Source: Clostridium sp. AT4 (GTDB lineage: Bacteria > Bacillota > Clostridia > Lachnospirales > Lachnospiraceae). Taken from it: a stretch of DNA of 64,000 bases. The position numbers and the translations under genes were made by a program. Under the pieces are notes generated by a model, which had not been told where the DNA came from, made no database searches, and saw nothing but the letters and a program-made list of their open reading frames with translations. The DNA is taken from NCBI RefSeq assembly GCF_001517625.2, contig NZ_LN999827.1, positions 515,348 to 579,347 on the forward strand. Direction: 5' to 3'. Of this stretch, positions 42,433-48,048 are shown piece after piece; position 1 is the stretch's first letter; each line of letters starts with the position of its first letter.

Positions 42433-42524
42433 GTTGCATACCAGAGTAAGCTTAAGAGCATCAGTGCTTTGCATGTAAAGGCTCTTGTTTTCAGCCCAAG
42501 TATGCATATACTCCTATATGGAAT

Positions 42525-42610
42525 GCCGCAGTGGCGGAACTGGCAGACGCCCGGGACTTAAAATCCCGTGGGTAGTGATACCCGTACCGGTTCGATTCCG
42601 GTCTGCGGCA
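42525..42610 (+). tRNA. tRNA-Leu (TAA)
   Basis: An 86-base class II tRNA. Acceptor GCCGCAG pairs with CTGCGGC, discriminator A. Anticodon TAA in ACTTAAAAT, long variable arm (TGGGTAGTGATACCCG) and T arm CCGGTTCGATTCCGG. CCA is not encoded. Its 3' end is the attachment site of the integrated element, and the gene stays intact. Confidence 0.96.
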
Positions 42611-42612
42611 TT
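42588..42612 (+). repeat. Attachment site, tRNA side (att core)
   Basis: A 25-bp sequence covering the T arm, acceptor 3' strand and two bases beyond tRNA-Leu, starting CGGTTCGATTCC and ending GCGGCATT. It is identical to 47467-47491. Confidence 0.9.
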
Positions 42613-42624
42613 AGTTAAAAATGG

Positions 42625-42660
42625 GAGAAACGTTGAATTTACAGCGTTTCTCTTATTTTT
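42625..42660 (+). terminator. Element-borne terminator after tRNA-Leu
   Basis: GAGAAACG and CGTTTCTC with a 12-base loop, followed by TTATTTTTTT. It lies 15 bp after the tRNA, inside the element, and replaces the tRNA's original terminator displaced to 47499. Confidence 0.8.
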
Positions 42661-42673
42661 TTGTTTTAAAATG

Positions 42674-42692
42674 TTTGAACACCTTTGAACAC
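42674..42692 (+). repeat. Integrase arm-site repeats, left
   Basis: Two direct copies of TTTGAACAC, 10 bp apart start to start, 62 bp inside the left core. A matching pair lies 58 bp inside the right core, as expected for arm-type sites of a tyrosine integrase. Confidence 0.65.
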
Positions 42693-42693
42693 T

Positions 42694-43950
42694 TTATGAT
42701 GAAATACCAAGATTCTGAAAAGCAAGCCTGTCATTCTTCCTCTTATTGACATTCCGCAAGTAATGCAATGTTGTAGCTGTCTCACTATGTCCCATTAAAT
42801 AACTAAGGGTTGTAAGATTATTTCCGTCAAAAGCTGTTGAAGCATTGTAAAAGCGGATTTTATGACTGGAATGATAAGGAACACCGGCTTCTTTGCAATA
42901 TTTCTTCAAACGGCGATTAAAGCTGTCTGTTGTCATAATCTCGCCGTTGGGTTCAAAGACATATATTCCATTTGGATTTAATTCCTTTGCTTTGTGAAGA
43001 ATTTTAAGTGCTTCGTCTGTAAGGAACTGTTTACGGAATCCATGAGAAGTATTTCCTTTCATTTGATTTACTACTTTTACTTTTCGGCTTGAGAATGTTA
43101 AATCATCATTCAATGTACGTTCACAGGTCGCCTGTCTGTGAAGATATACAAGCCTGTTATTGTAGTCAATATCTTCCCAACGGATAGCTTTTGTTTCTCC
43201 AACACGGATAAAGAGATAGAAAGATAACTGTATTGCAAGAGAATATGGTTCTATGATACACCGAAGATAATTTAATAACTTATGCGTATCATCACGGGAA
43301 AATACATTGTCACTTTGTACTTCTACTGGCTTATAGGTAAACTGTTTGAAATTCACATCAGAGACAGGATTATGTGATATAATTTCTTCTTCAATCGCAT
43401 AACTCATGATTCCATTCAAAACAGAACGGGCATTACTGACTCGCTTGTGCGTGAACTGTCGGTCTTTTGTAGCTTCTCTGAAAAAGCGGATAAGCGTGAT
43501 TGGTTTGATTTCGCCTATCTTCATTTTAACAAGTTCTGTATCTTTGAAAAATCTATTCCATTCAGATACATATTCTTGAATTGTTTTTGCTTTTACGGAA
43601 GTATAATCTCTTTTATACAAAAGCCATTCAGCATATAATTCTTCTAGTGTGACATTCTGACGGTTTTCAGCTTTCTGCTTTTCGATATAAAATCTGATGA
43701 TTTCTTTTTCAAGGTTCTCTTTACTCTTCCTCTTAACAGGACGGCGTTTGTTAGGTTTGGTTTCATCGGGTAAATAAGTACGCCAGCTTTTTTCTGATTC
43801 CGAGTAATAAATTTCATATTTGTGATTCTTCAAGATTTTTTTATTTGCCATAATTTTAAAATCTTTGAAGACTTCATCTGTGGTCATGTTAGCACAGGTG
43901 GCTAACGTATTCAATAATGTTATATCTGAAAACGTAACGGGATTATCCAT
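42694..43950 (-). CDS. Tyrosine-type integrase
   Basis: A phage/ICE-type site-specific recombinase of 418 residues. The N-terminal AP2-like arm-binding region (KYEIYYSESEKSWRTYLPDE), a SAM-like core-binding domain (LEELYAEWLLYKRDYTSVKA) and the catalytic domain are all present. Catalytic residues: Arg in LFIRVGETKAIRWEDI, His and Arg in SSHKIRFYNAS, His in LMGHSETATT and Tyr in LHYLRNV. It would join and excise the element at tRNA-Leu. Its ATG overlaps the Rep stop by 8 bp, so both are made from one transcript. Confidence 0.94.
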   Translation of the reverse strand: MDNPVTFSDITLLNTLATCANMTTDEVFKDFKIMANKKILKNHKYEIYYSESEKSWRTYLPDETKPNKRRPVKRKSKENLEKEIIRFYIEKQKAENRQNVTLEELYAEWLLYKRDYTSVKAKTIQEYVSEWNRFFKDTELVKMKIGEIKPITLIRFFREATKDRQFTHKRVSNARSVLNGIMSYAIEEEIISHNPVSDVNFKQFTYKPVEVQSDNVFSRDDTHKLLNYLRCIIEPYSLAIQLSFYLFIRVGETKAIRWEDIDYNNRLVYLHRQATCERTLNDDLTFSSRKVKVVNQMKGNTSHGFRKQFLTDEALKILHKAKELNPNGIYVFEPNGEIMTTDSFNRRLKKYCKEAGVPYHSSHKIRFYNASTAFDGNNLTTLSYLMGHSETATTLHYLRNVNKRKNDRLAFQNLGISS

Positions 43951-44797
43951 AAGATTCCCCCTTTACGCAAGGATTTTCTTTTTTAATTTTGATGTAGATA
44001 ACACTGCTGTCCTTTAAGCATGAACCAGTAGATAAGAAAGCGTTGGTATCGTAAATTTGCCTTGTGTATTCTTTCTGAAAGACGATATTTTCTTTTTGTA
44101 AGTCATGTAAAATGTCTTCGGTCAGCATGACTTTTGTTTCGTGTGGAACTTTCAGATTTTGAGATTTAAAAAAGGCTTTTTTCTTATGTTCTTTCAAATC
44201 AAGGTCTTTTCCAAAATACTTGCTAAGATAACGACCTCTGTTTTCTTTGCTGTCTACATCAATGCGATTGATTTTAATAAATCCATGTGACCATAAATTC
44301 TGTAATTTTTCTTTTGCTATATACGGAAAATCAAAGAAAATAACATGATAATGGATTGCTCCACGCTTCTGTTTCTCCCACGTTGCAAGGTATTTTAATA
44401 ACTGGGTTTTGGTATGGTACAAATAATAATTTAATCGCTGGATAAAATACTTAAATTCACGGTTAGTTATCAGGATTTCCTGAATGTTTTCTTTAAATGT
44501 CAGCGTTACAAATTTTGTTTTGTTATCAAAGTTGCAGTCAACAATACGGGCAATATCCCAACGAGCCTGTTCGTAATGTTTCTGCTTGCGTTTTAAACTG
44601 TCATATTGCTTATGAGCTGACATTTCATCAAATTTTTTTCGGTTACTTGTGTCTGTTAAATCTGCCTTTTCTTTCGAGTGAATAAAAATAGGGTTTTCGT
44701 AAATATATACTTCTTTTGTAGTAGGAGTTTCAATGATTTTCGTATTGTATGCAAAACACTCTTTTGTTTTGCTCACGAATCTCACCTCATATCCCAA
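43943..44797 (-). CDS. HUH-type rolling-circle replication initiator
   Basis: A 284-residue Rep resembling the REP_ORF2/inovirus Gp2-like group. Motif 1 is seen as KFVTLTFKENI, the metal-binding HUH motif as KRGAIHYHVIFFD (His-Tyr-His), and the nicking motif 3 as GRYLSKYFGKDL, with Tyr and the following Lys. The N-terminal region is charged and helical. Such proteins nick one strand at a double-strand origin and start rolling-circle replication. No helicase domain is attached. It is Lys/Phe/Tyr-rich like the rest of the element. It might also serve as a mobilisation relaxase; this is inference. Confidence 0.78.
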   Translation of the reverse strand: MGYEVRFVSKTKECFAYNTKIIETPTTKEVYIYENPIFIHSKEKADLTDTSNRKKFDEMSAHKQYDSLKRKQKHYEQARWDIARIVDCNFDNKTKFVTLTFKENIQEILITNREFKYFIQRLNYYLYHTKTQLLKYLATWEKQKRGAIHYHVIFFDFPYIAKEKLQNLWSHGFIKINRIDVDSKENRGRYLSKYFGKDLDLKEHKKKAFFKSQNLKVPHETKVMLTEDILHDLQKENIVFQKEYTRQIYDTNAFLSTGSCLKDSSVIYIKIKKENPCVKGESYG

Positions 44798-44872
44798 TTT
44801 TTGTAATGAATGTTCCGATTGTTTTCGGAAGATGTTGTTTTATATATCAAGTATAGTTAGAAGAAACTCTTC

Positions 44873-44935
44873 TCTCATGTAGGTCAGCCAGTCAGCACCT
44901 ATGACGTTGTCCGGCACTGACTGTCTGACGTGAGA
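44873..44935. other. Imperfect inverted repeat upstream of rep
   Basis: Left arm TCTCATGTAGGTCAG and CAGTCAG, right arm CTGACTG and TCTGACGTGAGA, forming an imperfect stem of about 22 bp around a 15-base centre. It lies between the DUF961-like gene and rep. It could be the origin nicked by Rep, or a weak terminator. Confidence 0.45.
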
Positions 44936-44939
44936 ATGA

Positions 44940-45260
44940 TTATTTCATTCCAGCTTTTCTGATATTGTCAGCCTCTGCCTTAACAGAAAGGCGTCCATTG
45001 TAGAGACTTGCCCATGTATGTAACCCCTCAAATGAGACAGGAACTTGTCCTTTCTGCTCAAGTTCTTCATTGGAGACAAGCTGGGTATTAGCTCTTACGC
45101 CGACCTTGACTTTTTCAAACTTTAACTTTGGAAGAAGAACGGTGTAGTAAAATCCTAATTTTTCCTTTGTAGAAAAGTCTACCCATTCAGAAACTTCTAC
45201 TAACTGAAACTGTTCTTCCAACTTGTTAGGATTTAAAATAAAGTCATTTCCTCGAATCAA
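44940..45260 (-). CDS. Small DUF961/YdcP-like protein
   Basis: A 106-residue acidic protein without signal peptide or membrane helix. It is the first gene of the minus-strand operon, with a strong GGAGG (AAGGAGGTGA) before the ATG. The layout of a beta-rich core (KLGFYYTVLLPKLKFEKVKV) and a C-terminal SVKAEADNIRK resembles the DUF961 proteins at the start of Tn916/ICEBs1-type conjugation modules, but the match is by eye and weak. It may bind single-stranded DNA next to Rep. Otherwise hypothetical. Confidence 0.55.
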   Translation of the reverse strand: MIRGNDFILNPNKLEEQFQLVEVSEWVDFSTKEKLGFYYTVLLPKLKFEKVKVGVRANTQLVSNEELEQKGQVPVSFEGLHTWASLYNGRLSVKAEADNIRKAGMK

Positions 45261-45277
45261 TATATCACCTCCTTCGG

Positions 45278-45396
45278 AATATCTGATTATCAGATATTAA
45301 GATATTCATATAATACAACAGAAAAAATATAATGTCAAGAAAAATATCTAAATATCCGATAAAAAGATTGACAGACAAAAAATGTTGAAATATAAT
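45278..45396. promoter_or_regulatory. Divergent consensus promoters with palindromic operator
   Basis: Plus strand: TTGACA (45368) and TATAAT (45391), spacing 17, for the repressor. Minus strand: TTGACA (45333-45338) and TATTAT (45310-45315), spacing 17, for the DUF961-rep-int operon. An operator candidate AATATCTGA-tta-TCAGATATT (45278-45298) lies just downstream of the minus promoter, and a related ATATCTAAATATCCGAT lies between the promoters (45343-45359). Confidence 0.75.
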
Positions 45397-45419
45397 GGTG
45401 CTTATAAAGGAGGTTCAGT

Positions 45420-45836
45420 ATGAATAAAATAAAAGAACTGCGGAAAGAAAATAATATTACAGTTGCAGAGTTGGCAAAGGAATTAGGGATATCACAAAGT
45501 ATGCTGACAAATTATGAAAACGGGAATGGAACGCCAAGAGATGAATCCATATGGGAAAAGCTGTCGCAGATATTTGGAGTGAGTAAAAGTCACGTTATGG
45601 GATTGACTACAGATATTGAAACGACAAACAAGACAAAGCGGTTGAGAGTGGTCGTGGATATGTCTCAGCCAGTATCCATTCAACCTAAAAGTCAGACAGA
45701 CCTTGATGTACTGACAAAGCTGGACTTAATAGACAGTGATGATATGGGAGAAGTGCTGAAGTTCTTAGATAAACTTTTAGCCCAAAGCAAATATGAGGGG
45801 CGGAGAGAAACACTGATAGAATACGTTGCAGAATAA
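45420..45836 (+). CDS. XRE/CI-type repressor
   Basis: 138 residues with an N-terminal helix-turn-helix (IKELRKENNITVAELAKELG, then ISQSMLTNYENGNGTPRD) and a C-terminal region without the Ser/Lys protease motifs of LexA-type repressors. AAGGAGG precedes the start. It faces the DUF961-rep-int operon across the two consensus promoters and probably keeps it silent. How it would be relieved is not visible. Confidence 0.87.
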   Translation: MNKIKELRKENNITVAELAKELGISQSMLTNYENGNGTPRDESIWEKLSQIFGVSKSHVMGLTTDIETTNKTKRLRVVVDMSQPVSIQPKSQTDLDVLTKLDLIDSDDMGEVLKFLDKLLAQSKYEGRRETLIEYVAE

Positions 45837-45838
45837 TA

Positions 45839-45919
45839 AACGTTTCCGAAGCCGTCCACTTGCCCAGCCGACCCGCCGCCCTGTTAGGAACCGTCGCTCT
45901 GGGCATCCTGCGGAACGTT
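45839..45919. other. GC-rich nested hairpin within the AT-rich element
   Basis: Outer arms AACGTTTCCG and CGGAACGTT (one bulge) and inner arms TGCCCAG (45861) and CTGGGCA (45899) enclose a C/G-rich core. No reading frame fits. It lies directly after the repressor stop. The composition is unlike the rest of the element. It is a candidate origin or structured RNA. Confidence 0.5.
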
Positions 45920-45970
45920 AGTTTTTGAAAGAATACGAACAAAAAGGAATATGCATTGCAAGTTTTAAAA

Positions 45971-46019
45971 GGATAGCAGACAGCACCATGAATGAAGTGT
46001 TGTCATGCTATTCTTTTTT
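45971..46019. terminator. Intrinsic terminator after the repressor
   Basis: GGATAGCAGACAGCAC pairs with GTGTTGTCATGCTATTC and is followed by TTTTTT on the plus strand. It overlaps the last codons of the minus-strand hypothetical gene. Confidence 0.8.
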
Positions 46020-46295
46020 GCCATATTCAATCATTACCGTTTTGAAAGGTTCGCTGTGATCCAGTGGAAACCAAGCCGGATAGTAGAGGTTGATTTCAAG
46101 GGTGGTGGGTGTTCCATTGATTCGATTATGCTCTGCTTCAATTTCTTGAATGGTATCGTTGATTCCCCAATATTTATAAACAGTCACAGATAATCGGGTA
46201 TCTCGTGTGTCTTGATTACTAAAGGACATACTGTTAGTGACATGATAATCGGGGAGTCTAATGTAATAATAAATTCCAGCCAGTAAGCAGAGCAA
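46008..46295 (-). CDS. Hypothetical protein, possibly 5'-truncated
   Basis: A frame of about 95 residues beginning with a hydrophobic segment (LLCLLAGIYYYIRLP), like a signal anchor, followed by a hydrophilic domain (LSVTVYKYWGINDTIQEIEA). The only start is a TTG without a clear ribosome-binding site, and the frame continues open for 60 bp upstream without an ATG. It may therefore be the remainder of a small lipoprotein gene cut off by a rearrangement. No family recognised. Confidence 0.4.
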   Translation of the reverse strand: MLCLLAGIYYYIRLPDYHVTNSMSFSNQDTRDTRLSVTVYKYWGINDTIQEIEAEHNRINGTPTTLEINLYYPAWFPLDHSEPFKTVMIEYGKKE

Positions 46296-46366
46296 TGTAA
46301 GTGTTGTTAGTACCTCACTATATAGTGAAAGAATTATTAAATATACTTTGTGTAGGGGTGATATGC

Positions 46367-46582
46367 ATGAATTATGGACATTTGGAATTAAGGATAGAAG
46401 AACTGTTGCAAGAAAAAGGTATCAGCAAGAATACCATTTGTAAGGAACTGGATATACCGAGGTCAAATTTTAACAGATATTGCAGAAATGAATTTCAAAG
46501 ACTGGATGCGAATTTAATCTGTAAATTGTGCCATTATTTTGGCTGTGAAGTCGGAGAAGTGATTATCTATGTAAAAGAATAG
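46367..46582 (+). CDS. Small XRE-family regulator
   Basis: A 71-residue Cro/CI-type protein, nearly all helix-turn-helix (LRIEELLQEKGISKNTICKE, IPRSNFNRYCRNEFQRLDAN, LCHYFGCEVGEVIIY). The ATG at 46367 is 8 bp after AGGGG. A terminator follows. It could control the downstream reductase gene or the element's excision; nothing in the sequence decides this. Confidence 0.75.
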   Translation: MNYGHLELRIEELLQEKGISKNTICKELDIPRSNFNRYCRNEFQRLDANLICKLCHYFGCEVGEVIIYVKE

Positions 46583-46618
46583 TGGAGTGTTGCTGTTAAT
46601 GGCATGGAGTGAATAAAA

Positions 46619-46656
46619 GGGTATGCTGAGATATGGAAGTCTCTCATGCCTTTTTT
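46619..46656 (+). terminator. Terminator after the small XRE gene
   Basis: GGTATGCTGAGA pairs with TCTCTCATGCC (one mismatch) and is followed by TTTTTT. It separates the regulator from the dihydrofolate reductase gene. Confidence 0.75.
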
Positions 46657-46658
46657 GC

Positions 46659-46687
46659 TTGTGCATTTTATAAAATAGAATTATACT
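46659..46687 (+). promoter_or_regulatory. Candidate promoter of the dihydrofolate reductase gene
   Basis: TTGTGC and TATACT spaced by 17 bp, about 130 bp before the start codon. The leader contains a small inverted repeat, GACAAA / TTTGTC. Confidence 0.4.
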
Positions 46688-46816
46688 GTGAGTAGTGGAA
46701 ACTGGACAAACTAGAATTTGTCGAGCTGGTTAGTTCGAGATAATTTTGAGTTTGTTAAGATGTGGTGCACTTGATGGAATCACAGGTACGACATCATATT
46801 ATGGAGGATGAAATAG

Positions 46817-47311
46817 ATGATAGGTTTGATTGTTGCGAGGTCAAAGAATAATGTTATAGGCAAGAATGGTAATATACCATGGAAAATAAAGGGAGAACAA
46901 AAGCAATTTAGAGAGTTAACAACGGGTAATGTGGTTATTATGGGGCGAAAGTCTTATGAAGAAATCGGTCATCCGTTGCCTAATAGAATGAATATTGTTG
47001 TTTCCACCACAACAGAGTATCAAGGAGATAATTTAGTTTCAGTTAAATCATTAGAAGATGCATTATTATTGGCTAAAGGACGAGATGTATACATATCTGG
47101 TGGATATGGACTATTTAAGGAAGCTTTGCAAATAGTAGATAAAATGTATATCACAGAAGTAGATTTAAATATTGAAGATGGAGATACATTCTTTCCAGAA
47201 TTTGATATCAATGATTTTGAAGTTTTGATAGGGGAAACACTTGGTGAGGAAGTGAAATATACGAGAACATTTTATGTAAGGAAAAATGAATTGAGTAGAT
47301 TTTGGATTTAG
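46817..47311 (+). CDS. dfrF: Trimethoprim-insensitive-type dihydrofolate reductase (DfrF-like)
   Basis: Reduces dihydrofolate to tetrahydrofolate with NADPH. The 164-residue protein has the family landmarks: MIGLIVARSKNNVIGKNGNI at the N-terminus, PWKIKGEQKQF, VVIMGRKSYEEIGHPLPNR, the GGYGLF NADPH loop and MYITEVDLNIEDGDTFFPEF. From memory the sequence closely matches the acquired DfrF of enterococci and streptococci; I could not run a comparison. The AT-rich gene, its place as cargo beside the right att site and its own promoter all support acquisition by transfer. GGAGGATGAAATAG precedes the start. Confidence 0.85.
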   Translation: MIGLIVARSKNNVIGKNGNIPWKIKGEQKQFRELTTGNVVIMGRKSYEEIGHPLPNRMNIVVSTTTEYQGDNLVSVKSLEDALLLAKGRDVYISGGYGLFKEALQIVDKMYITEVDLNIEDGDTFFPEFDINDFEVLIGETLGEEVKYTRTFYVRKNELSRFWI

Positions 47312-47388
47312 GGTGTTTTCATAAATATATTGCTTTTTATGCATATATAAATTGTTGTAAGACAAATTCCAGTTTGAGGGTGGAAATC

Positions 47389-47408
47389 TTTGAACACTTT
47401 TTGAACAC
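47389..47408 (+). repeat. Integrase arm-site repeats, right
   Basis: Two direct copies of TTTGAACAC, 11 bp apart, 58 bp from the right core and matching the pair at 42674-42692. Confidence 0.65.
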
Positions 47409-47466
47409 CGAGACCGTGATGAAGTCTTCAAAGCCCCTTTCTATCAGTATTTGTGATTATTTGAAA

Positions 47467-47491
47467 CGGTTCGATTCCGGTCTGCGGCATT
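47467..47491 (+). repeat. Attachment site, distal side (att core)
   Basis: Second copy of the 25-bp core. It is only the 3' end of tRNA-Leu and does not form a tRNA gene. Confidence 0.9.
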
Positions 47492-47607: not shown

Positions 47608-48048
47608 TTATTCAGAAACCTTTCTGGGCGTTCCTGTGATACGCAGATATTCCGAATCCCAGTCATAAGACGGAGGAAGAAGGGTATGGGGATTTCCCTT
47701 TATTTCCTTTGTAGGGGATACCAGACGGCACGAGCCGATATTTCCCTGCATCTCGCCCACAATCACCTTTTTGTCTTCCAGCTTCTTTTTCAGAGTAATG
47801 GAAGCACAGTTTCCTGCTGAGAAGCATACGATCTGCCCATCCTTCAGATGGGGTGCAATCCAGTCCGTAATGGCCTCGTGGCGTTTTGCCATAGCAGAGA
47901 CAAGCACTACCTCAGCCTCCACCAGGGCTTCCTCTACATCAAACGTAATGCTGTAGATCACCGCATGGCCGGTTCCGCAGCTGCCAACCAAATCCACACC
48001 ATTCCCATCTGCCTGAATGGCCTTTAAGCAAGTTATGTGCCAACATAT
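47608..48048 (-). pseudogene. Opine dehydrogenase-like gene remnant
   Basis: The frame reads as the middle of an NAD(P)-binding opine/octopine dehydrogenase-type protein: ITFDVEEALVEAEVVLVSAM, LKDGQIVCFSAGNCASITLK, VIVGEMQGNIGSCRL. The N-terminal GxGxxG nucleotide-binding start is missing, and the frame begins after a TAA with no proper start codon. After SPTKEIKG the sequence jumps to a short tail (LLPPSYDWDSEYLRITGTPR), so most of the C-terminal catalytic domain is also gone. A non-functional remnant is likely. Confidence 0.65.

Follow-up and report, generated by a model that had tools for sequence, protein, structure and literature searches.

The window analysed here, a 64,000-nucleotide stretch of the Clostridium sp. 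AT4 genome (assembly GCF_001517625.2, contig NZ_LN999827.1), contains an AT-rich unit of 4,879 bp (~4.9 kb) that lies between exact repeats at a tRNA-Leu gene and carries genes for a tyrosine integrase (int), a Rep protein (rep) and a trimethoprim-resistant dihydrofolate reductase (dfrF). With a probability of roughly 0.7, the unit is a compact integrative and mobilizable-type element (IME), for which excision, nicking and transfer are predicted from the sequence. The gene for a 106-aa conserved protein, rep and int are on the minus strand, and those for a repressor, a small HTH regulator and dfrF are on the plus strand. The element proteins matched the Pfam families tyrosine integrase, REP_ORF2-G2P (Rep), HTH_3, HTH_26 and DHFR, and no mating-pore genes were found in the element by inspection of its open reading frames and a Pfam scan. 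Comparison loci and genomes are referred to by L and G numbers, respectively.

The exact 25-bp att repeats of the original prediction were found at 42588–42612 and 47467–47491 (both plus strand). The first forms the 3' end of a tRNA-Leu(TAA) gene with a UAA anticodon (42524–42611, plus strand; ARAGORN, Rfam RF00005), which is the integration target. The att core common to relatives is 23 bp, CGGTTCGATTCCGGTCTGCGGCA (42588–42610 on the tRNA side), the final TT of the window repeat not being present in all of them. An exact 23-mer repeat is expected by chance ~3e-5 times in 64 kb at equal base frequencies. The GC content of the element is 0.353, as compared with 0.477 for the remaining window, in agreement with the AT-richness claimed earlier.

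The integrase (418 aa; 42694–43950, minus strand) is complete, as had been proposed, and matched PF00589 (E 8e-14) and phrog_1. It adjoins tRNA-Leu(TAA) in all ten copies that are readable on that side, and the 23-bp core is present at both ends in 9/10 tRNA-Leu copies; in L038, the far-end core was not found within 14 kb of sequence. Paired TTTGAACAC repeats at 42674–42692 and 47389–47408 are likely integrase arm sites, given their constant offset from the core, which is the same within 1 nt in 10/10 tRNA-side ends and the same in 10/10 far ends having a core. A second (sister) integrase of 442 aa, found on the same Rep backbone, adjoins tRNA-Pro in 4/4 cases, its gene being broken in L062. 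As read from these copies, the tRNA target depends on the integrase. The counts leave out L063, which shares its contig with L041, L042, whose Rep near tRNA-Pro is decayed, and, at the tRNA side, L056 (contig ends inside int), and include L043 for tRNA-Leu and att only. At L041/L063 (738–6540), three att copies were seen in tandem: an element whose rep is broken comes first, and behind it is a remnant that has zinc-ribbon cargo flanked by like boundary sites (see below).

Rep (284 aa, TTG start; 43943–44797, minus strand), whose gene overlaps int by 8 bp, is of the HUH rolling-circle type that had been recognised earlier. It matched PF23343 (REP_ORF2-G2P; E 1e-22) and phrog_3419, and showed no match to Rep_trans in Pfam. 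The HYH and YxxKY motifs are invariant in 12/12 aligned Reps, and on these features Rep is a putative relaxase. Upstream of rep lies a block, ACTTGATATATAAAACAACATCTTCCGAAAA (44822–44852, minus strand), that is identical in 11/11 aligned copies. Its first 22 nt, one position being A or G, recur with at most one change in four Bacilli loci with Rep identities of 54–59% and with 1–2 changes in two Enterococcus faecium elements with a 55% identical Rep; upstream of rep, it is thus kept across Rep identities of 54–100%. The block is absent in pKCOM1281, pGTG5 and pHT926. It resembles the annotated phiX174 origin, which is the A of AACTTG^ATAT in the phiX174 record, and CTTGATA is present in pC194, where we take it to be the nick site. 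The string ACTTGATAT occurs once in the 64 kb. A Rep nick site, ACTTG^ATATATA, is therefore placed on the minus strand at 44848/44847 as a prediction. Beside the block, a hairpin with compensatory changes (44883–44929, minus strand) has 16 consensus pairs, three of which are changed on both sides.

The same region marks a switch in the ancestry of the element. The identity of the window to Blautia L057 is ~83% as far as 44819, beyond which there is a single difference over the 2.67 kb at 44820–47489, dfrF included. To L037, L038, L041 and L032, the identity is ~99% on the left; the sequences stay alike to ~44856 and are 80% identical from there on. Because identity switches in opposite senses in the two comparisons, the sequences point to a crossover in the history of these copies at 44820–44856, a segment of 37 nt that covers the conserved block, and most simply in the window copy. 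A scan of 13 sequences (up to 78 pairs, those with <1,500 aligned columns being skipped, with an analyst-chosen cut) gave 21 strong switches: eight at 44801–44924, of which six involve the window and are not independent, five at 45318–45376 and eight at 45918–46014. The crossover may have been due to homologous recombination in the conserved block or to Rep-mediated exchange, which the sequences do not tell apart.

A Rep match was found in 27/397 genomes of the family, and in seven of these, own genome included, the identity was at least 70% over at least part of the protein; of the seven, G214 and G104 have a broken rep and G005 a partial one. Three further genera within the family have a Rep of 99% identity, and nearly the same integrase (~99%) likewise occurs in other genera at the same tRNA. 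Named genomes, when scanned, yielded 13 loci, including those of [Ruminococcus] torques, Blautia sp. Marseille-P3087, Faecalicatena orotica, Metasolibacillus and a Neobacillus metagenome-assembled genome. Per 150-nt bin, the integrase/rep DNA of the window is 96–100% alike to that of L037, L038, L039, L041 and L032, whereas in a relative from the same genus the tRNA flank reaches only 83%, and hence recent spread between genera is indicated.

Within the genus, the element is not fixed. The integrase occurs in the own genome only (1/17), the best matches in the other 16 genomes reaching ≤31% identity, with several of the 17 genomes being only 77–90% complete. An intact, free tRNA-Leu core with no element after it is present in G119, and in G397 the right-flank gene lies close behind a tRNA-Leu whose sequence differs from that of the window. 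Since copies in other genera have this compact gene order between att cores as well, the unit is not a fragment of one larger integrative and conjugative element (ICE). Thus, what had been described as a minimal element is indeed a compact, site-specific Rep-integrase unit with a resistance gene that is common to several genera. The original prediction did not recognise it as a named element, but passages of PMC5357655 already describe elements of this kind in streptococci.

The dihydrofolate reductase had been taken for a resistance-type cargo, and its identity as DfrF (164 aa; 46817–47311, plus strand) was established with the NCBIfam model NF000333 (380.7 bits against a cutoff of 320). The gene lies in a cargo slot that has a promoter-like sequence, TTGTGC-17-TATACT (46659–46687, plus strand), a left boundary site (46705–46722, plus strand) and an inverted right boundary site (47361–47376, minus strand). 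The promoter and the left site precede the cargo in 11/14 sequences scanned (12 places, 13–15 nt apart, shuffle p ≤0.04) and were not found at the slot in L039, L043 and L059; for the right site, the shuffle p was >0.1 in 4/11 far ends. In relatives, the cargo comprises SF0329 and DUF3784 proteins, an MFS transporter, a GNAT acetyltransferase and a flavodoxin, and, in copies where the promoter was not found or not sought, a MerR-TipAS regulator with a SnoaL-like protein and a ResIII helicase. The dfrF unit, from boundary to boundary (46698/46705 to 47376/47377), occurs with 99.3–99.9% identity in three enterococcal plasmid records, and the DfrF protein is identical to that of the window in both Enterococcus copies compared.

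The boundary sites may be candidate exchange sites, operators or mRNA hairpins. A rather doubtful proposal is that the slot is a cassette-exchange site that would move small genes such as dfrF as units between unrelated element families, combined with a Rep-mediated strand exchange at the nick block that would shuffle the two element halves. In this joint proposal, the conserved promoter would be followed by the inverted sites GACAAAYYRGAATTTG and ACAAATYCCAGTTTG in an integron-like arrangement that has no known recombinase, and the families served would be the present Rep-type elements, the enterococcal Rep_trans elements and perhaps Tn916-like ICEs. The 18-bp boundary pattern with ≤1 mismatch was found at 54 places in 50/391 genomes of the class, in excess of the 16 places of a backward-read control, and with ≤3 mismatches it was not found in seven background loci (109 kb). 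A genome-wide cassette system based on this pattern was rejected, as in 12/30 loci read the site lies inside a frame of >120 aa. Besides the window locus, only L133 of the 30 loci has a second site on the opposite strand, in the wrong order; the loci were read with flanks of ≤1.5 kb, from which more distant partner sites would escape. A third site of this pattern in the window lies inside rep. In the Tn916-like regions L150 and L151, variable small genes between mobT and ardA resemble by eye the cargo described here, and one of the regions has a like right boundary.

A life cycle of the element can be proposed as follows. The repressor would keep expression of the 106-aa gene, rep and int low. 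Upon its relief, Int would bind the core and arm repeats and excise a circle from tRNA-Leu. Rep would then nick the minus strand at the predicted site beside the hairpin, initiating rolling-circle replication and releasing a single strand that could leave, with Rep as relaxase, by the conjugation pore of a resident conjugative element. Such a double role of Rep, in replication of the circle and in transfer by a helper pore, is suggested by analogy with the Rep-like relaxases that passages of PMC5357655 discuss for both streptococcal IMEs and ICEBs1. In the recipient, the strand would be made double-stranded, perhaps from a GC-rich hairpin of the element, and would reintegrate at tRNA-Leu, where the conserved promoter-like sequence would drive dfrF.

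Possible helpers are present in the host genome, in which one region encodes TrbL/VirB6, MobA/MobL and VirD4 and a second one MobL and VirD4, giving two large VirD4 genes. At L096 11467–17173 (G000:C7), a resident ICE-like region contains a serine recombinase and a MobA/MobL relaxase, possibly as a nested mobilizable element. An FtsK-type gene is found in another element of the host genome (L044). This second int-Rep-FtsK element (G000 contig C4:209–4343), of which a seemingly identical copy is at the end of C2 (L045), has a Rep and an integrase that are 32% and 31% identical to those of the window, respectively. Among the Bacilli relatives, rep and the small gene are separated by a large gene in 3/4 loci, with an FtsK_SpoIIIE (TcpA-type) match in both tested, and one DUF3173 gene was confirmed by test. 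Neither the window nor the non-Bacilli copies read showed a large or FtsK-type gene separating rep from the small gene.

Several observations weigh against the IME interpretation. Neither TcpA nor an excisionase was recognised in the element, and the Bacilli relative L066 has no FtsK gene. The helper genes found in the host encode coupling proteins of the VirD4 type, and PF12846 (VirB4-type) gave no match above the cutoff in the genome search, with one protein passing when scanned alone. A circular junction was not seen; in viral contigs, the exact tRNA-side pattern had no matches and the far-end pattern had one. The long block was not seen upstream of rep in 22 loci with Rep identities of 23–32%. 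In two of these (L024 and L025; Rep identity 25–27%), CTTGATA precedes the listed rep frame by ~40 nt, which may be either significant or fortuitous. Finally, the gene for a small protein that is membrane-anchored in relatives (46008–46295, minus strand) is shortened at its 5' end as compared with intact copies; the shortened form is common to the window and Blautia L057.

The last point would suit an island that has decayed and become immobile, or what remains of a larger ICE, as would the broken and partial rep genes of G214, G104 and G005. This is very improbable, given the open frames of Int, Rep and the repressor, the presence of both att cores and arm repeats, and the repetition of the compact order between att cores in other genera. 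An integrated rolling-circle plasmid, whose Rep would replicate the circle only and which would spread passively or by transformation, seems unlikely. Related Reps do occur on small circular plasmids such as pKCOM1281 of Fusobacterium polymorphum (L154; 4,956 bp), which encodes a 105-aa protein, an FtsK-type protein and a 45% identical Rep with no annotated integrase, and which appears from its genes to be a plasmid version of the module in the window. However, the FtsK-type gene, annotated even in pKCOM1281 and present in Bacilli relatives, points to DNA transfer, and the recent spread over several genera also speaks against passive dissemination.

A phage satellite or virus-like element packaged by a helper phage was considered as well, since the Rep family includes phage initiators, and Reps 31–44% identical over part of the protein were found in six phage records. 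Moreover, parts of such elements are found in three 'Bacteriophage sp.' records that have no annotation and come from human faeces (Mexico). They may stem from a study of filtered, chloroform- and DNase-treated particles (PMC8361208), a link that is unconfirmed, 'MT83' not occurring in its text. One of these records runs into genes that by eye look conjugative, so that bacterial DNA seems to be present in the data set behind the records. No packaging, terminase or capsid family was recognised among the window proteins or 16 presumed cargo proteins of relatives, two IMG/VR scans gave no Rep relative, and the only far-end match in IMG/VR (L163) is a prophage lying beside such an end. Packaging by a phage is thus distinctly unlikely. 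At L163, a prophage-type integrase frame and the far end of an element of this family are ~0.2 kb apart, with the frame outside the element.

As an IME, the element is closest in anatomy to class 3 (Rel_PHA00330) of the streptococcal IMEs. According to passages of PMC5357655 and PMC5704250, one of the IMEs with PHA00330-type relaxases is in pneumococcal tRNA-Leu and one has no coupling protein. The class is marked by a relaxase-excisionase-integrase block, usually carries TcpA and is proposed to use TcpA helpers, and 2/21 of its members are without TcpA (PMC5357655). IME_SpnA45_tRNAleu and IME_SanC238_tatD share with the window element a phage-initiator-type, Rep-like putative relaxase, an adjoining tyrosine integrase and a compact order, one named member being in tRNA-Leu with TcpA. 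The window element differs, as far as these passages go, in its hosts, in having no recognised excisionase and no FtsK/TcpA gene, and in having a divergent repressor, a cargo slot and dfrF. Membership in class 3 is likely by anatomy, with PF23343 being equated with PHA00330 from their descriptions.

The plasmid-borne int-rep elements of E. faecium (pTT39_p1 and pQL50) have, besides the 55% identical Rep and the block (at -78), int, rep, a small gene and a divergent regulator in the same order as the window; they differ in that rep and int are separated by a DUF3173 or small HTH gene, in their cargo and in their location on large plasmids. The enterococcal dfrF elements NZ_CP033739 and pELF_JHP35 share the dfrF unit with both boundaries (99.7–99.9% identity) and the combination of integrase, Rep, regulator and cargo. 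In contrast, NZ_CP033739 has a Rep of the Rep_trans family (PF02486) and an annotated excisionase, and the integrase of pELF_JHP35 is annotated as Tn1545-type. ICEs of the Tn916/ICEBs1 family likewise have a rolling-circle-type relaxase, whereas the window element has no conjugation genes, another Rep family and no DUF961. Among the matches listed, no title describing this element was found in the literature on dfrF, Blautia or gut tRNA-Leu elements. The kind of element is already known from streptococci; new are the nick-like block beside its hairpin, the mapped crossover and the cargo slot, whose dfrF unit recurs in enterococcal elements.

The remaining features are mostly regulatory or small. 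The 106-aa protein (44940–45260, minus strand), an open reading frame conserved in relatives upstream of rep and int, had originally been assigned to DUF961. This was ruled out, as a Pfam scan with E values up to 10 gave no match and the hhalign probability for a relation to DUF961 proteins was 0.5%. The repressor with divergent genes proposed in the original prediction is an HTH_3 protein (Pfam) of 138 aa (45420–45836, plus strand), and between the divergent genes is the palindrome ATATCTGATTATCAGATAT (45279–45297), with perfect 9-bp arms around one base, which is likely the repressor operator. A second palindrome, TCACTATATAGTGA (46315–46328), also found in L041, is upstream of the small HTH_26 regulator (Pfam) of 71 aa (46367–46582, plus strand).

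The GC-rich, hairpin-forming block at 45852–45919 (plus strand), nearly invariant in copies, is a candidate single-strand origin, which is a guess. An alternative assignment as an origin of transfer was dropped, no plasmid match and no Rfam family having been found. The block occurs at eight places in 6/299 family genomes, two of these places being outside known copies. At L051 (G165) and L054 (G102), it is found with 2–3 mismatches outside any recognised element. To the right of the element, a 129-aa frame (47608–47997) without a Pfam match may be what is left of an earlier gene.

Enterococcal elements encode the same DfrF protein as the window element, which is shared with a Blautia strain, and the element is therefore a plausible vehicle for dfrF among gut bacteria. 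For this class, Rep-like relaxases had been put forward on the basis of gene order. With a precise predicted nick position, an integrase swap by which the tRNA target changes and a cargo slot common to several copies, this proposal can be tested directly.

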